A program made the position numbers and the translations under genes. DNA of 64,000 nt from assembly GCF_018882125.1 (NCBI RefSeq), contig NZ_JACVOZ010000001.1, positions 372,001-436,000 of the forward strand. Reading direction: 5' to 3'. Below, piece after piece: positions 44,463 to 52,859 of the stretch (its first letter is position 1; each line of letters opens with the position of its first letter). Under the pieces are notes generated by a model. The model searched no databases. It saw nothing but the letters and a program-made list of their open reading frames with translations, and was not told where the DNA came from. The DNA comes from Polynucleobacter sp. AP-Melu-500A-A1. GTDB taxonomy: Bacteria; Pseudomonadota; Gammaproteobacteria; Burkholderiales; Burkholderiaceae.

Positions 44463-47222
44463 ATGGTAATCGGTCTTCTTAAAACCCTGGTCGGCAGTCG
44501 TAACGACCGCCTCTTAAAACAGTATCGCAAAGTGGTTGCTAAGGTTGGCGCTTTCGAGCCTAGTCTGCAAGCTTTGGATGATGCTGCACTGGCTGCAAAG
44601 ACGGAGCAATTTAAAGCTCGTTTAGCGGCTGGCGAAGCGCTGGACGATATTGCCCCTGAGGCATTTGCTGTCGTTCGCGAAGCCAGCGTACGCGTGATGA
44701 AGATGCGCCATTTTGATGCCCAGATCATCGGTGGTTTCGCTTTGCATCAAGGCAAGATTGCTGAGATGGGTACTGGCGAAGGAAAAACCTTAACTGCTAC
44801 GCTTCCGGTGTATTTGAATGCACTTACTGGCAAAGGCGTGCATGTAGTTACTGTGAATGATTACTTGGCACAGCGTGATGCTGAGTGGATGTCTAAGTTA
44901 TATAACTTTTTGGGTATGCAAGTCGGGGTCAATCTTTCGCAGATGGATCACGCTACTAAGGAAGCAGCTTACGCAGCAGATATTACCTACGGTACTAACA
45001 ACGAATTTGGATTTGATTACTTGCGCGATAACATGGTGCAAGACTTAGGTCAGCGCGTACAACGTGGTTTAGCTTACGCGATTGTTGACGAGGTTGATTC
45101 GATTTTGATTGATGAAGCGCGTACGCCATTAATCATTTCAGGCCAAGCTGATGACCATACAGATTTATATCTCAAAATTAATGCACTACCTACTTATTTA
45201 GACTTACAAATTGGCGAAGAAAAAGCTGATGGAACCGGTGTTGAAAAGCCAGGTGATTATTGGGTAGATGAAAAGTCTCAGCAGGTATATTTGACTGAGC
45301 AAGGTCACGATAAGGCTGAAACGGTATTGGTGCAATTAGGAGCCCTTAATGATGGCAACTCCTTATATGCTCCACAAAACATTACCTTGATGCACCATGT
45401 GTACGCTGCTTTGCGTGCACACTCTTTATTCCACCTCGATCAACATTACGTAGTGCAAAATAATGAAGTCATCATCGTTGATGAATTTACTGGCCGCTTA
45501 ATGCAGGGCCGTCGTTGGTCGGATGGATTGCACCAAGCAGTAGAAGCTAAAGAAGGCGTTCCGATTCAGAATGAGAATCAAACCTTAGCGACAATTACAT
45601 TCCAGAATTACTTCCGGATGTACGGTAAGTTGGCAGGTATGACCGGTACTGCCGATACCGAAGCATATGAATTCAAAGAAATTTACAATCTTGAAACCGT
45701 GGTGATTCCACCAAACAGAATCAGCCAGCGTAAAGATCGTCAGGATCAGATTTATAAGTCATCACGTGAGCGTTATGACGCCGTAGTTAAAGATATTGAA
45801 GATTGCTACGAGCGCGGTCAACCAGTGCTTGTTGGTACTACTTCGATTGAAAACTCAGAATTGATCGCAAAGCTTCTTGATCAACGCAAAATGCCGCATC
45901 AAGTTCTCAATGCGAAACAGCACCAGCGTGAAGCAGAAATTATTGCCCAAGCAGGGCGCCCTAAGATGATCACGATTGCTACCAATATGGCTGGTCGTGG
46001 AACTGATATTGTGCTGGGCGGTAACGTAGGTAAGCAATCCTCTTTGCTTGAAGCTGATGCAGCTTTAACTGATGCAGAGAAGGCTACGAAGATTAAGGGT
46101 CTTCAAGATGAGTGGCAAAGTATTCATGATCAAGTACTAAATGCTGGCGGTTTACACATTATTGGTACTGAGCGTCACGAGAGTCGTCGAATTGATAATC
46201 AGTTAAGAGGTCGCTCTGGTCGCCAGGGTGACCCAGGCTCATCCCGTTTTTATCTTTCTTTAGATGATCCTCTTTTGCGTATTTTTGCTGGAGATCGCTT
46301 ACGCGCTGTGATGGAGCGCTTGAAGATGCCTGATGGTGAACCAATTGAAGCAGGCATGGTGACTCGTTCTATCGAGTCAGCGCAACGCAAAGTAGAAGGT
46401 CGTAACTTCGATATTCGTAAGCAATTATTGGAGTACGACAACGTTGCAAATGATCAACGTAAAGAAACCTATCGCCTTAGAAATGAAGTTTTAGAGAGTA
46501 GTGATGTTGGCGGGTTGATTGCTAATCTGCTTGAAGACGTACTTCGCTCGGTATGCGCTATTTATGTGCCACAAGATTCTATGGAGGAACAGTGGGATTT
46601 GGTTGGCCTGGAAAATGCACTGGCAAGTGAATGGGGTCTTACTGTTGATTTACAGAAATGGGTTGAAAGTGCCGAGACGGTTGAAGATTCTGAAATCTTT
46701 GAGCGAGTATTACAGGCCGCTAAAGCGTCATACGATGCCAAAGTGGATTTGAGTGGTAGAGAGTCTTTTGCTGGTTTTGAGCGTTCAGTACTTTTATATA
46801 GCTTAGATAGCCATTGGCGTGAACATTTAGCTGCATTAGACCATTTGCGCCAAGGTATTCATTTGCGCGGCTATGCCCAAAAAGATCCTAAGCAAGAATA
46901 TCGTCGCGAAGCCTTCGAGTTGTATGGTGAACTCTTAGATGTGATCAAGAATGATGTAGTGAAAAGCATCATGACCGTGCAAATTCGGAGTGCTAGTGAG
47001 TTAGACCAGGCCTCAGAATCTATCAATGAGGATTTGGCTAAGTTATCTGATGTGAAATATCAACATGCAGACGCAGATGCTGCTATATCTAGTCCTGTAG
47101 ACCCAGCTGAAGTGGAATTAACGCCAGCGCCCTTACGTGCAGGTCCTAAGGTTGGCCGTAATGACCCATGTCCTTGCGGCAGTGGTAAGAAATATAAGAA
47201 TTGTCACGGTGCGCTAGCGTAA
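44463..47222 (+). CDS. secA: Protein translocase ATPase SecA
   Basis: Motor of the Sec pathway, binding SecYEG at the inner membrane. Walker A GTGEGKT (103-109), [19 protein letters not shown], the second nucleotide fold [14 protein letters not shown] with [17 protein letters not shown], and a C-terminal zinc-binding segment [14 protein letters not shown] that binds SecB. 919 residues. No secM is seen upstream. A strong hairpin terminator follows 27 bases after the stop. Confidence 0.99.
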
Positions 47223-47249
47223 AACGTCTAAATTCTGTAGAAACACCTT

Positions 47250-47275
47250 GGGGGCCGAACGCCCCCATTTCTTTT
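47250..47275 (+). terminator. Intrinsic terminator after secA
   Basis: GGGGGC (47250-47255) and GCCCCC (47261-47266) with a 5-base loop, then ATTTCTTTT. A second weaker stem GCCC/GGGC lies at 47288-47300. Confidence 0.85.
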
Positions 47276-47330
47276 GCCAAAACCTTGGCCCCTCTAGGGC
47301 TTTCCCTAACTATGCGCAGTCAAATTTTTG

Positions 47331-47365
47331 GTCGAATATCGACTTCTATATGCAAAAGATTGCAT
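47331..47365. promoter_or_regulatory. Inverted repeats upstream of the AOR operon
   Basis: GTCGA-ATA-TCGAC (47331-47343) is a perfect 5+3+5 inverted repeat, and ATGCA-AAAGAT-TGCAT (47350-47365) a second, 22 bases before the first gene's start. The two lie where a promoter would be and may be operator sites. AAAGGA at 47375 is the ribosome site. Confidence 0.45.
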
Positions 47366-47386
47366 TTATAAGTAAAAGGAATCGGC

Positions 47387-47863
47387 ATGCAAAAGTCATT
47401 GCAAATCAACGCGGATAAGTGCACTGGTTGTCTTCAGTGTGAAATGGCCTGTAGTTATGAGCACTACGGTGTTTTTAATACTTCTAAATCTCGAATTAAG
47501 GTATTTGAATTTCACAAAACTGGTAAAAAAGTTCCCTATACTTGTACACAATGTGATGAGGCTTGGTGTCTCCAAGCATGCCCAGTAGATGCCATTCGAG
47601 TGGATTTCATTACTGGCGCCAAAGTTGTTTCTGATGACACCTGTGTTGGTTGTAAGGTGTGCACAATCTCTTGCCCATTCGGAACAATTAATTATGTGCA
47701 AGACACAGGCAAAGTACAAAAATGTGATTTATGTGGAGGTGATCCAGCCTGCGCAACTGCATGTCCAACTGGAGCTATTACTTATGTAGATGCTGATTGG
47801 ACTGGTCTAGATAGGATGCGTGAGTGGGCCGATAAGCTTGGCAATCAAGATATCGCTAACTAA
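47387..47863 (+). CDS. Ferredoxin-like electron-transfer subunit of aldehyde oxidoreductase
   Basis: 158 residues with sixteen cysteines in four [4Fe-4S] motifs: C12/15/18/22, C53/56/61/65, C86/89/92/96 and C113/116/122/126. This is the polyferredoxin type (DMSO reductase B/HycB-like) that accompanies tungsten aldehyde oxidoreductases of the AorABC kind known from Aromatoleum aromaticum. It would wire the catalytic subunit to the FAD subunit. First gene of the operon, 21 bases before the catalytic subunit. Cytoplasmic: no signal peptide. Confidence 0.88.
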   Translation: MQKSLQINADKCTGCLQCEMACSYEHYGVFNTSKSRIKVFEFHKTGKKVPYTCTQCDEAWCLQACPVDAIRVDFITGAKVVSDDTCVGCKVCTISCPFGTINYVQDTGKVQKCDLCGGDPACATACPTGAITYVDADWTGLDRMREWADKLGNQDIAN

Positions 47864-47884
47864 TAAAGTATAGGAAAAAATATC

Positions 47885-49732
47885 ATGTCATGGGCTGGAA
47901 AACTTTTACGCGTTAACTTAAGCAAGGGCACTTGCCAATCCGAGCCACTCAATATGAAGTGGGCTAAAGAATATTTAGGGTCAAGAGGTATGGCTACTAA
48001 GTATTTTGTTGAAGAAGTAGATCCTAAGGTCGATCCGCTTTCTCCAGAGAATAAAATTATTTGGGCTACTGGCCCTTTAACTGGGACGATGGCATCTACG
48101 GGAGGGCGTTATACAGTTGTGACTAAAGGTCCTTTGACAGGCGCGATTGCTTGCTCAAACTCCGGTGGTTATTGGGGTGCGGAATTAAAGATGGCTGGCT
48201 GGGATATGGTGATCTTTGAAGGTAAGTCACCGAAGCCAGTCTATTTATATATTGAGAACGATAAAGCAGAGTTGTTAGATGCTTCTGATCTCTGGGGTAG
48301 ATCAGTCTGGGAGACTGAGCCTACTATCAAAATCAAACATCAAGATCCGCAGATCCGGGTGTCATGTATCGGGCGGGCTGGTGAAAATCAAGTCTTATAC
48401 GCTGCTATTGTGAATGACTTACATCGTGCTGCAGGCCGTTCAGGCGTTGGCGCTGTGATGGGTAGTAAAAATTTAAAAGCGATTGCAGTTAGAGGCACTA
48501 TAGGAGTAGGCAATCTCAAGGATCCTAAGGCATTTATGGCGGCTACTGCCGCAGGTAAGGCCGTATTGGCTGGACATGCTGTGACAGGACAAGGTTTGCC
48601 AACTTATGGAACCCAAGTCCTCATGAACGTGATTAATGAAGTTGGTGCATTGCCTACTCGTAATCATCAAGATGTTCAGTTCGAGGGCGCTAAGGATATT
48701 TCCGCTGAAGCAATGGCGGAACCTCGTGAGTCAGATGGCAAAGCCCATTTAGTGACAAACCAAGCATGCTTTGCTTGCACTATTGCCTGCGGCCGTATTT
48801 CTAAAATTGATGACACCCATTTTTCAATTGAAAATAAACCGCAGCATATGCATGCATCTGGTGGACTTGAATACGAGGCGGCCTGGGCTTTGGGTGCCGC
48901 AAATGGAGTGAATGATTTAGAGACATTGCAATACGCAAACCAGTTATGTAATGAACAAGGAATAGATCCCATTTCTTTCGGAGCAACTGTTGGTGCTGTG
49001 ATGGAGTTGTATGAAATGGGTGTTCTAACCAAAGAACAGATTGGAATCGAGGCGCCTTTTGGGTCCGCTAAAGCGCTTTGTTACTTGGCAGAAATTACTA
49101 CCGAAGGAACAGGTTTTGGAAAAGAGATGGGCCAAGGCTCAGCTCGTTTAACTAAAAAGTACGGTCACCCTGATCTTTCGATGAGTGTTAAAGGTCAAGA
49201 GTTCCCGGCCTATGACGGTCGAGTGATTCAAGGTATTGGCCTTGCTTATGCGACTTCTAATCGCGGAGCTTGCCATCTTCGGGGTTATACGATTGCCTCT
49301 GAAGTCTTGGGTATTCCAGTAAAAACTGAACCTGGTGATACCGATGGCAAACCTGAATTGGTTAAAGCCTTCCAAGATGCAACTGCCGCTTTTGATTCTG
49401 CTGGTATTTGTATCTTCACTAGCTTTGCATGGACGCTCGCAGACGTCGCGCCACAATTGCAGGCAGCTTGCGGGGATGAATTTACTGTGGAAAATTTGAC
49501 AACGATTGGTGAGCGTATCTGGAACATGGAACGCGACTTTAATAATCGTGCCGGCTTTACCAATAAAGATGACAAGCTACCTAAGCGCTTGATGACCGAG
49601 GCAGCTAAGACTGGACCAGGCAAAGGCTCTGTAAGCGGTTTAGACAAGATGTTGCCTGAGTATTACAAGATTCGGGGTTGGGATCCAGAAGGGCGCCCCA
49701 GCGCGGAAACAATGAAGCGTTTAGGCCTTTGA
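47885..49732 (+). CDS. Aldehyde ferredoxin oxidoreductase, tungsten-pterin catalytic subunit
   Basis: Oxidises aldehydes to acids at a W-bis-pterin site; the reverse reaction is also known in the family. 615 residues. The [4Fe-4S] ligands are C295, C298 and C302 (CFACTIAC) and C509, which sits in the pterin-binding DSAGIC (504-509). The N-terminus GKLLRVNLSKG and TGPLTGTMASTGGRY with AIACSNSGGYWGAELKMAG are standard AOR family N-domain motifs. It is of the AOR type rather than the GOR/FOR types only by overall look. Codon use resembles neighbouring genes. Confidence 0.93.
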   Translation: MSWAGKLLRVNLSKGTCQSEPLNMKWAKEYLGSRGMATKYFVEEVDPKVDPLSPENKIIWATGPLTGTMASTGGRYTVVTKGPLTGAIACSNSGGYWGAELKMAGWDMVIFEGKSPKPVYLYIENDKAELLDASDLWGRSVWETEPTIKIKHQDPQIRVSCIGRAGENQVLYAAIVNDLHRAAGRSGVGAVMGSKNLKAIAVRGTIGVGNLKDPKAFMAATAAGKAVLAGHAVTGQGLPTYGTQVLMNVINEVGALPTRNHQDVQFEGAKDISAEAMAEPRESDGKAHLVTNQACFACTIACGRISKIDDTHFSIENKPQHMHASGGLEYEAAWALGAANGVNDLETLQYANQLCNEQGIDPISFGATVGAVMELYEMGVLTKEQIGIEAPFGSAKALCYLAEITTEGTGFGKEMGQGSARLTKKYGHPDLSMSVKGQEFPAYDGRVIQGIGLAYATSNRGACHLRGYTIASEVLGIPVKTEPGDTDGKPELVKAFQDATAAFDSAGICIFTSFAWTLADVAPQLQAACGDEFTVENLTTIGERIWNMERDFNNRAGFTNKDDKLPKRLMTEAAKTGPGKGSVSGLDKMLPEYYKIRGWDPEGRPSAETMKRLGL

Positions 49733-49742
49733 GTTTCTATCT

Positions 49743-50996
49743 ATGAAGCATGTCATTTTGGGCAATGGCCCAGCAGGGGTTATTGCGGCTGAGACGCTTC
49801 GTAAGCGCGCGCCTAAGGATCAGATTGTGATGATTGGTTCTGAGGACGTACCCCCATACTCACGCATGGCCATCCCCTATCTCTTGATGGGCAATATCGA
49901 TGAGTCTGGCACTTATCTTCGCAAAGATGCCGGACATTTTGAAAAACTAAACATTGACCAAATACTTGGTAAAGCAACTGCGATTGATATTCAAGCTAAG
50001 AAGATTGAGCTAGATGGAAAGTCCATTAGTTTTGATAAGTTATTGATCGCTACGGGTTCAGTACCTGTCCAACCCCCGATTCCTGGAATTGATTTACCAG
50101 GTGTTCACCCTTGCTGGACTTTAGAGGATGCACGCGCTATTGCTCAGCTTGCTAAACCAGGTTCTAAAGTATTGCAGATGGGCGCAGGCTTTATTGGCTG
50201 CATCATTTTAGAGGCGCTTGCCAGTAGAAAAGTCGAGCTCACTGTTGTAGAGATGGGTGATCGCATGGTTCCTCGCATGATGACTGAAGTAGCTGGGGGA
50301 ATGATTAAAAAGTGGGTACAAGAAAAAGGGGTTCAGGTTTACACCGACACTAAAGTTGAAGCCATTACTAAATCTGGATCTGGATTAGCTGTCAAGCTCT
50401 CGAATGGTAAATCTATTGAAGTGGATCTAGTGATTTCAGCAACGGGGGTGCGACCCAATATTGCTTACTTAAAAAATTCTGGCCTTGACTTAAATACCGG
50501 AATTTTGGTAAATGATTTGATGCAAACTTCTCACCCTGACATTTATGCGGCCGGTGATGTCACTGAGAGCATTGATTTTTCAACAGGTAAGCGTATTGTC
50601 AATGCGATTCAACCAAATGCAGCAGAGCAAGCCAGAATTGCAGCAATCAGCATGACAGGTGGTGATGCACATAGTTTAGGAGCTCTTCAGATTAACGTGT
50701 TAGATACCTTGGGTCTGATTTCTTCTTCATTTGGTTTATGGTCTGGCGCTAAGGATGGTGATCATGTGGAGCTAGTTGATTCAGTGAATTACAAATACCT
50801 TCGCCTAGAGTTTTTAGGGGATGTATTGGTAGGTGCAACCTGTGTAGGTACCACTGAGCATATCGGTGTTTTGCGTGGCTTGATTCAAGGGAAGATTACC
50901 TTGGGTGATTGGAAAGATACCTTAATTGGCGATCCCACTAAATCCATGGATGCTTATTTGGCGGTTGGTCAAGCGCAATCAGTCTGGATGAATTAA
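49743..50996 (+). CDS. FAD/NAD(P)-dependent oxidoreductase subunit
   Basis: 417 residues of the pyridine-nucleotide disulfide oxidoreductase fold: VILGNGPAGVIAAETL (FAD), SRMAIPYLLMG, LLIATGSVPVQPPIPG, LQMGAGFIGCIILEAL (NAD), SATGVRPN and YAAGDVTES (second FAD). Placed 10 bases after the AOR subunit, it probably passes electrons between the ferredoxin subunit and NAD(H), as AorC does in Aromatoleum. No redox-active disulfide motif is seen, in keeping with a nitrite-reductase/rubredoxin-reductase-like NAD(P)H dehydrogenase. Confidence 0.88.
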   Translation: MKHVILGNGPAGVIAAETLRKRAPKDQIVMIGSEDVPPYSRMAIPYLLMGNIDESGTYLRKDAGHFEKLNIDQILGKATAIDIQAKKIELDGKSISFDKLLIATGSVPVQPPIPGIDLPGVHPCWTLEDARAIAQLAKPGSKVLQMGAGFIGCIILEALASRKVELTVVEMGDRMVPRMMTEVAGGMIKKWVQEKGVQVYTDTKVEAITKSGSGLAVKLSNGKSIEVDLVISATGVRPNIAYLKNSGLDLNTGILVNDLMQTSHPDIYAAGDVTESIDFSTGKRIVNAIQPNAAEQARIAAISMTGGDAHSLGALQINVLDTLGLISSSFGLWSGAKDGDHVELVDSVNYKYLRLEFLGDVLVGATCVGTTEHIGVLRGLIQGKITLGDWKDTLIGDPTKSMDAYLAVGQAQSVWMN

Positions 50997-51005
50997 GCTT
51001 TCGAT

Positions 51006-51260
51006 ATGCAAATTACTTTGAAGTTGTTTGCCAGCTTGGCAAGCTATCTCCCTCCTCATAAAAAGAATGGAATTGAAGCTGATATTGAAGTGGCGGAGGG
51101 CAGCACTATTGGCGACATGATTGAGCTCTACAAGATTCCAAGTAAGTCAGCACATCTGGTGATGGTAAATGGTTTCTATATCAAGCCAGAAGAGCGTAAT
51201 CAATATGTTCTAAAAGCCGATGATGCTCTGGCTATTTGTCCTCCAGTAGCTGGCGGATAA
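51006..51260 (+). CDS. MoaD/ThiS-family sulfur carrier
   Basis: 84 residues of ubiquitin-like beta-grasp type: TLKLFASLASYLPP, VAEGSTIGDMIE, VMVNGFYI, LKADDALAICPPVAGG. The C-terminal Gly-Gly is the site of thiocarboxylate formation, needed to put dithiolene sulfurs on molybdopterin. A dedicated copy inside an AOR operon suggests a role in the tungsten-pterin cofactor. It starts 9 bases after the FAD subunit. Confidence 0.88.
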   Translation: MQITLKLFASLASYLPPHKKNGIEADIEVAEGSTIGDMIELYKIPSKSAHLVMVNGFYIKPEERNQYVLKADDALAICPPVAGG

Positions 51261-51281
51261 GTTTTTCAGTAGCTAGTTCAG

Positions 51282-51578
51282 ATGCCAAAATTTGTCAGGG
51301 AGATGGGCTGTACGCCTGAAGATTTGGTGCGCTGGCTACCGCAAGCACTCGGTGACTTATATCCAAATTCGACTGTAGTGCTTGATGGAAATATCTTACT
51401 TTCAGCAAAAATCCCCGAATTGCAGATAGAGGGTAGAAGCAAGCCTTCTCGAAAAATAGCCCTCTTAGATATTCCAGTCCTAGATCTCAGGCTGAAGTTT
51501 GCTGAAAATTGGACTGCTATTCAGTGTGAGACAGCTTTAAAGCGATTTGATCTTTATACTCGCAGAGGTGGGGGTTAG
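51282..51578 (+). CDS. Unrecognised 98-residue protein of the AOR operon, C-terminal Gly-Gly-Gly
   Basis: I do not recognise it. It starts MPKFVREMGCTPEDLVRWLP, has alternating hydrophobic strands in the middle (STVVLDGNILLSA, ALLDIPVLDLRLKF), one helix-like stretch (IQCETALKRFDLY) and ends RRGGG. No membrane segment and two cysteines (C10, C80). It lies 21 bases after the MoaD-like gene and ends before argJ, so it belongs to the operon. It might help cofactor assembly or carry sulfur through its glycine tail, but that is only a guess. Confidence 0.7.
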   Translation: MPKFVREMGCTPEDLVRWLPQALGDLYPNSTVVLDGNILLSAKIPELQIEGRSKPSRKIALLDIPVLDLRLKFAENWTAIQCETALKRFDLYTRRGGG

Positions 51579-51623
51579 CTTGATGCCCCTTTTTCCTTTT
51601 ACCTTTTGATTATTGAGTTTTCT

Positions 51624-52859
51624 ATGTCAGTTAATCTACCTTTACCTCAAAAATCAGACCTCAAACCTATTTCTGGTTTTGAGATGGGCATTGCTCAGGC
51701 TGGAATCAAGAAGGCCAATCGCAAAGATTTATTAGTCATGACATTAGCGCCAGGATCTCAAGTGGCTGGGGTATTTACCCTCAATCGCTTTTGTGCGGCC
51801 CCAGTTCAAGTATGTCGAGAGCATTTAGCCCAAGATGGCCGTCATGGTGAGATTCGGGCCTTAGTTGTTAATACGGGTAATGCCAATGCTGGAACTGGTG
51901 AGCAGGGCATGCAGCATGCTCTAGAAACTTGCGCTGCTTTAGCAAAAGATCTCAAATTAAATCCAGAACAAATCCTACCTTTTTCTACTGGTGTGATTTT
52001 GGAGCCCTTACCGATTGGGAAAATTGTTTCTGCTTTGCCGAAAGCCGTAGCGCACTTAGGAGAAGACAACTGGTTGGACGCGGCGGAAGCTATTATGACA
52101 ACCGATACTCAACCGAAGGCTTGCTCAGCCACTGTTCAGACTTCTGCAGGGCTTGTGACGATGACTGGCATTTGTAAGGGCGCCGGAATGATTCATCCTA
52201 ATATGGCAACCATGTTGGGTTTCATTGCAACTGATGCAGGCTTTGCTCCTGGCTTATTGACAGCCTTGACTCGTGAAGTAGCCGACCAATCATTTAACGC
52301 TATCACTATTGATGGGGATACTTCGACCAATGATTCTTTCATCATTATGGCGACGGGAAAATCTCCTGTTCAGATTACCTCTACTGCCGATGCAAACTAT
52401 GCAATTGTGTGCGATGCACTGATTGCAATTGCTAAAAAGTTAGCGCAAATGATTGTGCGCGATGGTGAAGGTGCTACAAAACTGATGACCATAGAAGTTA
52501 TTGGTGGCAAGACAGTTGAAGAGTGCCGCCTAGTGGCCAAGGCAATTGCCCATTCTCCTTTGGTAAAGACTGCCTTTTTTGCTAGTGACCCTAACCTTGG
52601 TCGAATCTTGGCGGCAATTGGATATGCGGGTATCTTAGACTTAGATGTGGGTAAGGTTCAAATGTGGCTTGGTGATGTTTGGGTTGCCAAGGATGGTGGG
52701 CGGAACCCCAGCTATCAAGAGGCTGATGGTCAAAGAGTGATGCAAGAATCAGAAATTACCATCAAGATTGATTTAGGTCGCGGCACTGCTTCTCAAACCT
52801 TGTGGACATGTGACTTATCGCATGATTATGTTTCGATTAATGCTGACTACCGTTCTTAA
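51624..52859 (+). CDS. argJ: Bifunctional glutamate N-acetyltransferase / N-acetylglutamate synthase
   Basis: Cyclic arginine pathway enzyme moving acetyl from N-acetylornithine to glutamate. The precursor cuts itself before the nucleophilic Thr in [21 protein letters not shown] precedes it. [32 protein letters not shown] and the end [13 protein letters not shown] are family marks. I chose ATG 51624 (411 residues); a frame-open start 18 bases upstream looks spurious. Confidence 0.97.

Follow-up and report, generated by a model that had tools for sequence, protein, structure and literature searches.

An Aromatoleum-type aldehyde oxidoreductase operon is probably one of at least three cassettes exchanged between secA and argJ in Polynucleobacter

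Five plus-strand open reading frames (ORFs) between secA and argJ of Polynucleobacter sp. AP-Melu-500A-A1, aorABCDE (47387-51578), make up what is, by its sequence, a complete NAD-dependent tungsten aldehyde oxidoreductase (AOR) operon of the already known Aromatoleum type. Coordinates refer to the window, the whole 64,000-nucleotide (nt) stretch analysed here (positions 372,001-436,000 of NZ_JACVOZ010000001.1); the host genome of 2.29 Mb is labelled G000, and G- and L-numbers likewise label the genomes and loci compared. The genes encode a four-cluster ferredoxin subunit (aorA, 47387-47863; 158 amino acids, 16 cysteines and a C-terminal tail of 21 amino acids after Asp137), a tungsten-pterin catalytic subunit (aorB, 47885-49732; 615 amino acids; PF02730 at E 6.9e-82 and PF01314 at E 1.9e-135), an FAD/NAD subunit (aorC, 49743-50996; 417 amino acids; Pyr_redox_2 at E 5.4e-58; Arg41 and Met42 present), a MoaD/ThiS-like carrier (aorD, 51006-51260; 84 amino acids, ending in GG; ThiS at E 3.9e-10) and a 98-amino-acid member of a family without a Pfam model, with a C-terminal RGGG (aorE, 51282-51578). 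An earlier sequence-only reading had listed these five genes at these positions and recognised AorABC among them, an identity borne out by the Pfam domains, by an end-to-end match of AorB to chain A of the Aromatoleum structure 8c0z in the PDB (residues 1-615 to 1-615, 1054 bits) and by the iron-sulfur cysteines, all four of which are kept in AorB (295, 298, 302 and 509). Its list stands except for the fifth gene, given as an unknown protein: because the Aromatoleum operon likewise includes aorD and aorE, described in PMC6365974 as putative maturation genes, we identify this gene as aorE.

The catalytic subunit falls inside the AOR family, as that reading had supposed, and beyond the long alignment it keeps 17 of the 18 residues named in the Aromatoleum structure paper: C295, C298, C302, C509, E331, H464, Y468, F511, F514, N92, A182, R75, R181, D361, D504, G94 and I508, with Val510 replaced by Ile. 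That paper gives His484 once and His464 elsewhere; in the window AorB only position 464 is His. The cysteine count and C-terminal tail of AorA would fit four 4Fe-4S clusters and the ~20-amino-acid filament helix of Aromatoleum AorA, whose tail builds filaments according to the Aromatoleum AOR paper, and in AorC the Arg179 of that paper is Met, with Arg at 178, by position count without alignment (other literature drawn on: PMC10413684, PMC13328260). The operon thus resembles AorABC(DE) of Aromatoleum aromaticum, a class III tungsten oxidoreductase, in gene order, in the named catalytic and iron-sulfur residues save Val510, in the AorA tail and in AorC Arg41 and Met42, the likeness of aorD and aorE being one of operon position and not of sequence comparison with the Aromatoleum genes. 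It differs in host genus and chromosomal place, and the Polynucleobacter AOR is known from genes alone and is one of several exchange partners in its slot. AorB would oxidise aldehydes at a tungsten-bis-pterin site, AorA would wire the electrons and AorC would pass them to NAD+, while AorD and AorE would aid the making or insertion of the cofactor.

To the left of the operon lies secA (44463-47222, plus strand) and to the right argJ (51624-52859, plus strand; ATG at 51624, the listed ORF starting from a TTG at 51606). We scored this slot in the 137 of 151 Polynucleobacter genomes, one per species, that carry secA and argJ on one contig; among the 14 that could not be scored, G022 (AOR beside secA at a contig edge) and G054 (an aldehyde dehydrogenase, ALDH, block) were read afterwards. 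The slot is empty in 73 genomes and occupied in 64, by a molybdenum (Mo) enzyme block in 32, AOR in 21, an ALDH block in seven, an MBOAT block in two, and a decayed AOR and a TPR block in one each. Gap sizes fall into sharp classes: at most 172 bp when empty, ~2.1 kb (two genomes), 2.82-2.87 kb (the 32 Mo blocks), 3.44-3.50 kb (the seven ALDH blocks), 3.7 kb with aor fragments (one), 4.36-4.41 kb with AOR (21) and 8.6 kb (one).

The Mo block is a two-gene molybdenum hydroxylase, made up of a 2Fe-2S subunit and a Mo-binding subunit of ~707 amino acids, the start of which we take to be twin-arginine translocation (Tat)-like. The best solved relative of this large subunit is the aldehyde dehydrogenase large subunit of 8gy3, over residues 6-706 of 707, a similarity by which the Mo cassette would be a putative aldehyde oxidase. 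In the ALDH block, an ExaC-type, NAD-dependent acetaldehyde dehydrogenase (955.7 bits to model NF050026, whose cut-off is 900) is accompanied by a DUF779 protein and a divergent GAF-Fis regulator. These alternatives probably carry out the same kind of chemistry as AOR. The 2.1-kb block (L072 and L073, in G158 and G042) holds an MBOAT protein and one of unknown kind, and the 8.6-kb block (L074, G015) five ORFs, of which the one scanned is long and TPR-rich; in these three genomes argJ is only 65-67% like that of the window. In a tblastn search of 100 fetched regions each of the 61 AOR, Mo or ALDH slots matched its own set alone, and no slot examined held two cassettes. DUF779 genes also lie outside the slot, in G204, G033, G059, G176, G040, G066, G150, G065 and G029.

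The variability is peculiar to this joint. Among rows picked by slot state, the secA-argJ distance deviates by more than 500 bp from the median in 68 of 100, and the corresponding counts at six other joints nearby are 0/93, 0/95, 0/98, 0/97, 1/96 and 0/94. Beyond the genus, 58 other genomes of the order were searched, and in 16 of the 28 best-scoring loci, which were examined, argJ follows secA by no more than 1.5 kb (14 within ~220 bp); the adjacency is therefore probably ancestral. The sequence-only reading had proposed an insertion at an otherwise close joint, and the adjacency in 73 of the 137 genus genomes, with argJ near secA in those 16 order loci, agrees with it. A single insertion does not hold up: because sister species have other aldehyde-type enzymes at this very joint, it is better described as an exchange slot. 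Separately, L215 (G153) has ~0.7 kb of extra sequence between the DUF815 homologue and zapD, where the spacing is constant across the 95 other genomes measured.

To place the slot states on a phylogeny, we inferred a tree with FastTree from seven flank genes, excluding the last 600 nt of secA. Its 100 genomes were selected: 61 in which secA and argJ share a contig and the slot holds AOR, Mo, ALDH or decayed AOR, and 39, five of them deep, out of the 73 with an empty slot. By parsimony the slot state needs 31-32 changes on this tree (shuffled mean 49.4), and ALDH needs seven changes for its seven rows. For 32 of 60 occupied genomes the nearest relative is in another state. Close pairs in differing states include G013 (AOR) and G052 (ALDH), G039 (AOR) and G166 (ALDH), G165 (AOR) and G030 (empty), and the window genome (AOR) and G206 (Mo); AOR and ALDH are found in pairs at 95.6% core identity.

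The edges of the exchange probably lie in the ends of the neighbouring genes. Across 24 junctions compared, the sequence is common to all states up to the secA stop and state-specific beyond it, and a short leader precedes argJ at 3/3 Mo, 4/4 ALDH, 6/7 empty and 0/10 AOR junctions. In one clear transfer pair, G051 and G172, the cassettes are 94.6% identical against a core identity of 77.3%; the last 600 nt of secA are 63-90% identical per 60 nt, the cassette side of both junctions 88-97% per 80-nt line, the first 60 nt of argJ 93%, and the sequence beyond 65-90% per 60 nt, so that identity shifts inside the closing ~60 nt of secA and the opening ~60 nt of argJ. A similar jump is seen at a 300-nt scale in G011 and G189. 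In a flank test over all pairs of 94 rows (six rows excluded; 18 windows, uncorrected p), same-state pairs showed greater similarity, by 0.57 points over the final 300 nt of secA (0/300 permutations as high) and by 0.16 to 0.32 points in the four argJ windows (p 0.07, 0.003, 0.14 and 0), an effect not seen in ftsZ, ftsA, lpxC or DUF815. Each cassette would carry its own leader, and cassettes would replace one another, or the empty joint, through homologous recombination where the two flanking genes are conserved, in the final codons of secA and the opening codons of argJ, with the ~60 nt at either gene end as left and right exchange anchors. Within the window, 51579-51623 is where the usual argJ leader is replaced in the AOR state; because this leader is absent at AOR junctions, argJ may be read through from, or depend on, aor transcription in that state.

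All three cassettes are old in the genus, because cassette identity follows core identity (r 0.84 for AOR, 0.87 for Mo and 0.82 for ALDH). AOR and Mo pairs track the core more loosely than argJ or secA do (r 0.92-0.94); the 21 ALDH pairs are too few for this comparison. The same fall of cassette identity with core identity agrees with the sequence-only reading that any transfer would be old. That reading had seen nothing unusual in codon use, for which G+C content at third codon positions, the sole measure taken, is 0.31-0.39 in the aor genes and 0.38-0.39 in five neighbours. Since clear recent transfers are few and cassette identity follows the core, most donors are presumably unseen, and if the cassettes are old, recent changes between close species need either unsampled donors or several cassettes kept within species.

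MoaC was matched in 142 of 151 genus genomes, including that of the window, where the sequence-only reading had suggested looking for moa and moe genes. Among single-contig genomes, G161 (L220) has a decayed aor and no moaC, G164 (L221, L174) has stops in aorB and a broken moaC, and G017 (L187, L175) has a broken Mo subunit and a broken moaC; we count this co-decay in favour of the exchange reading, though it may reflect no more than general gene decay. The eight further genomes without moaC are all drafts, with AOR in G022, G061, G088 and G195 and none in G036, G069, G152 and G205, and the AOR carrier G182 has a partial moaC. A tungstate transporter had likewise been suggested for a search. 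At L167:5257-8196 (G000:C5) genes for ModA, a ModE-like regulator and a TupA-like binding protein cluster with a short Mop-like ORF, and no adjoining permease gene was recognised; the TupA-like protein scores 236.9 bits, below the equivalog cut-off of 400, and no TupB or WtpB was found among the nine of 15 PF00528 permease matches scanned against NCBIfam. A ModB and a ModC-like ORF lie at another place in the window genome, and tungstate may be taken up via the Mod permease.

We put at about 70% the probability that AOR is one of at least three non-homologous cassettes that replace each other at this slot through recombination in the ends of the flanking genes. A rival account would have AOR inserted once, long ago, and passed down vertically with many losses, the other blocks landing later in the emptied joint. 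The correlation of AOR identity with core identity (r 0.84) and the decayed remnant in G161 speak for such a history, and we nonetheless find it improbable: the seven ALDH rows require seven changes, AOR and ALDH occur in pairs at 95.6% core identity, none of the 61 fetched cassette slots holds two sets, and the Mo cassette has moved between distant species. It is also rather unlikely that the joint is no more than a permissive landing site, with three main occupants that look like aldehyde oxidases by chance, from three draws that descent then multiplied. The other cargo in three low-identity genomes speaks for such a site, as do the frequency of relatives of the Mo large subunit (114 of 151 genomes, most of those listed at 36-40% identity) and the fact that only three kinds are involved, noticed post hoc; on the other side, one or other of the three kinds fills 61 of the 64 occupied slots, and the slot-type Mo enzyme (at least 78% identity) occurs in 32 genomes and always in the slot. 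As to the direction of the AOR reaction, the Aromatoleum enzyme can slowly reduce acids (PMC6365974), so that a mainly reverse role, reducing acids with low-potential electrons, can be envisaged; with AorC being an NAD-linked subunit and the backward rates very low (both points from that paper), we regard it as highly improbable.

Several observations weigh against exchange of equivalent cassettes. The slot has other contents in three low-identity genomes, and the next PDB relatives of the Mo enzyme include enzymes acting on N-heterocycles and CO. DUF779 genes of the ALDH-cassette kind occur outside the slot in nine genomes, among them one beside a Mo slot (G204), one as a second copy (G033) and one beside an off-slot AOR (G029, 53%). 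That cassette identity follows core identity (r 0.82-0.87) also counts here, and clear recent transfers amount to two Mo pairs and perhaps one ALDH pair (G020/G083, 93.2 vs 87.6), with no AOR pair. AOR clusters only weakly on the tree (17 changes, shuffled mean 19.5, 29/500 as low), which was itself built from genes adjoining the slot; coaE (+0.21, p 0.07) and one inner secA window (p 0.04) lean the same way as the slot flanks; and G023, with one stop in its Mo subunit, has a moaC match without a stop.

Exchange at the slot may extend to a stronger form, which we hold tentatively and at somewhat less than even odds: secA-argJ would be a multi-allelic locus carrying non-homologous tungsten, Mo or NAD aldehyde-oxidation systems, or none, which outlast species and are swapped via the gene ends. 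It is suggested by the need of recent changes for unsampled donors or within-species cassettes, a choice that one genome per species cannot decide. Equivalence of function among the cassettes, polymorphism within species and selection for one aldehyde oxidase are what we infer here, and the enzyme activities, including tungsten use and NAD-dependent aldehyde oxidation by AOR, are predicted from the genes. If true, the locus would be a trans-species polymorphism of function and not of sequence, and metal supply (tungsten versus Mo) or the type of aldehyde could set the favoured allele.

Non-orthologous gene displacement in situ is the replacement of one enzyme by an unrelated one of like function. 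The slot resembles it in that unrelated enzymes of like function swap, and differs in its 31-32 changes at one joint within one genus and in having an empty state. The question of displacement is usually posed across distant taxa; here closely related bacteria, including cultured strains, offer three cassettes at a single site with which to test it, and the slot also makes tungsten use in a lake bacterium testable. It is also like the replacement flexible genomic islands of aquatic bacteria, described for P. asymbioticus in PMC5644125, which can hold different contents at a given site and are exchanged through homologous recombination in flanks that are recombination hotspots. Of the two examples named there, one is a cell-surface island and the other a giant-gene region; the slot here measures 2.8-4.4 kb in its main states and differs in that these look like alternative means to a single metabolic function. 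The main text of PMC5644125 mentions no aldehyde, secA or argJ, and our searches found no paper on Polynucleobacter with 'aldehyde ferredoxin oxidoreductase', or with 'aldehyde' and 'molybdopterin'. The operon itself is known. A slot where unrelated enzymes with similar chemistry replace one another is, as far as these searches among the best-ranked papers reach, undescribed; it is a variant of replacement islands.

AorE has no Pfam or NCBIfam match at E 0.1; its RGGG end and Cys10 are invariant in 52/52 aligned members (alignment A1; the 52 were picked from 103 matches). Comparison by sequence did not place it with MoaD: the best PDB match of an AorE profile was no better than E 1.2, and eight Pfam families each match one of the 52 members, at best with E 0.0018. 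Its predicted model (mean predicted local distance difference test, pLDDT, 92.7) gives as top Foldseek match chain residues 86-165, the C-terminal domain, of the MoaD-related protein 1v8c. At Foldseek E 0.026 and Z 6.7, a Z score shared by unrelated chains, this match is of middling strength and serves as a structural lead for AorE. Because of this resemblance, AorD and AorE may be a split form of a 1v8c-type MoaD-related protein.

Upstream of aorA, the operon gains a candidate operator in the palindrome AGGGCTTTCCCTA (47296-47308, plus strand), 90-91 bp 5' of the aorA start. Its general form, AGGGNTTTCCCTA (N is C in 20 and A in one), lies at 90-91 bp in 21/21 AOR slot cassettes, and the window holds one match against 0.07 expected. 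The palindrome is present in 48 of 103 upstream stretches (some genomes entered twice), 13 of the 48 from outside the genus; among AOR slot stretches, L092 is masked by N and L086 has one mismatch. At genus AOR loci outside the slot it lies upstream in L103, L093 and L094 and is missing from L088-L091, L095-L097, L169 and L170. An operator common to all three cassettes was considered and rejected, the palindrome being found upstream of 0/32 Mo and 0/7 ALDH genes. A terminator-like hairpin after secA (47249-47267, plus strand) belongs to the AOR cassette, because the other slot states carry different sequence there. Counts of terminator-like sites are no evidence in themselves, since four were found against 4.4 in shuffles; consensus promoters in 47150-51750 number two, fewer than the 7.6 in shuffles, and no Rfam family reaches its gathering score within the window.

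The sequence-only reading had thought AOR unexpected in a small-genome freshwater bacterium, and here it was mistaken. Of 150 relatives, 26 have PF01314; AorB is found in 37 of the 151 Polynucleobacter genomes (own genome, partial and decayed copies counted), and 457 stretches in a GTDB scan encode AorB relatives; given this spread, the aor operon is ordinary for Burkholderiales. Nearly all of the best 80 of these stretches are titled Burkholderiales or Betaproteobacteria, for example Limnohabitans and Hydrogenophaga, and A, C and D genes accompany AorB in 77 of these 80 loci. None of 57 AOR loci outside the genus, judged by titles other than Polynucleobacter (AorB ~79-83%), has secA or argJ in flanks of up to 8 kb, shorter at contig ends. 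As for a mobile vehicle, no viral contig matches AorB peptide patterns in a search that reaches close relatives only, and the 87 plasmid records matching AorB are all below 60% identity. Within the genus, AOR lies outside the slot in 10 of the 137 genomes, the slot being empty in each. The operon sits there at several other sites (L088-L091 and L095; L169, L170, L172 and L173; L093, L094 and L097; L096; L103), and at least four of these belong to deep lineages.

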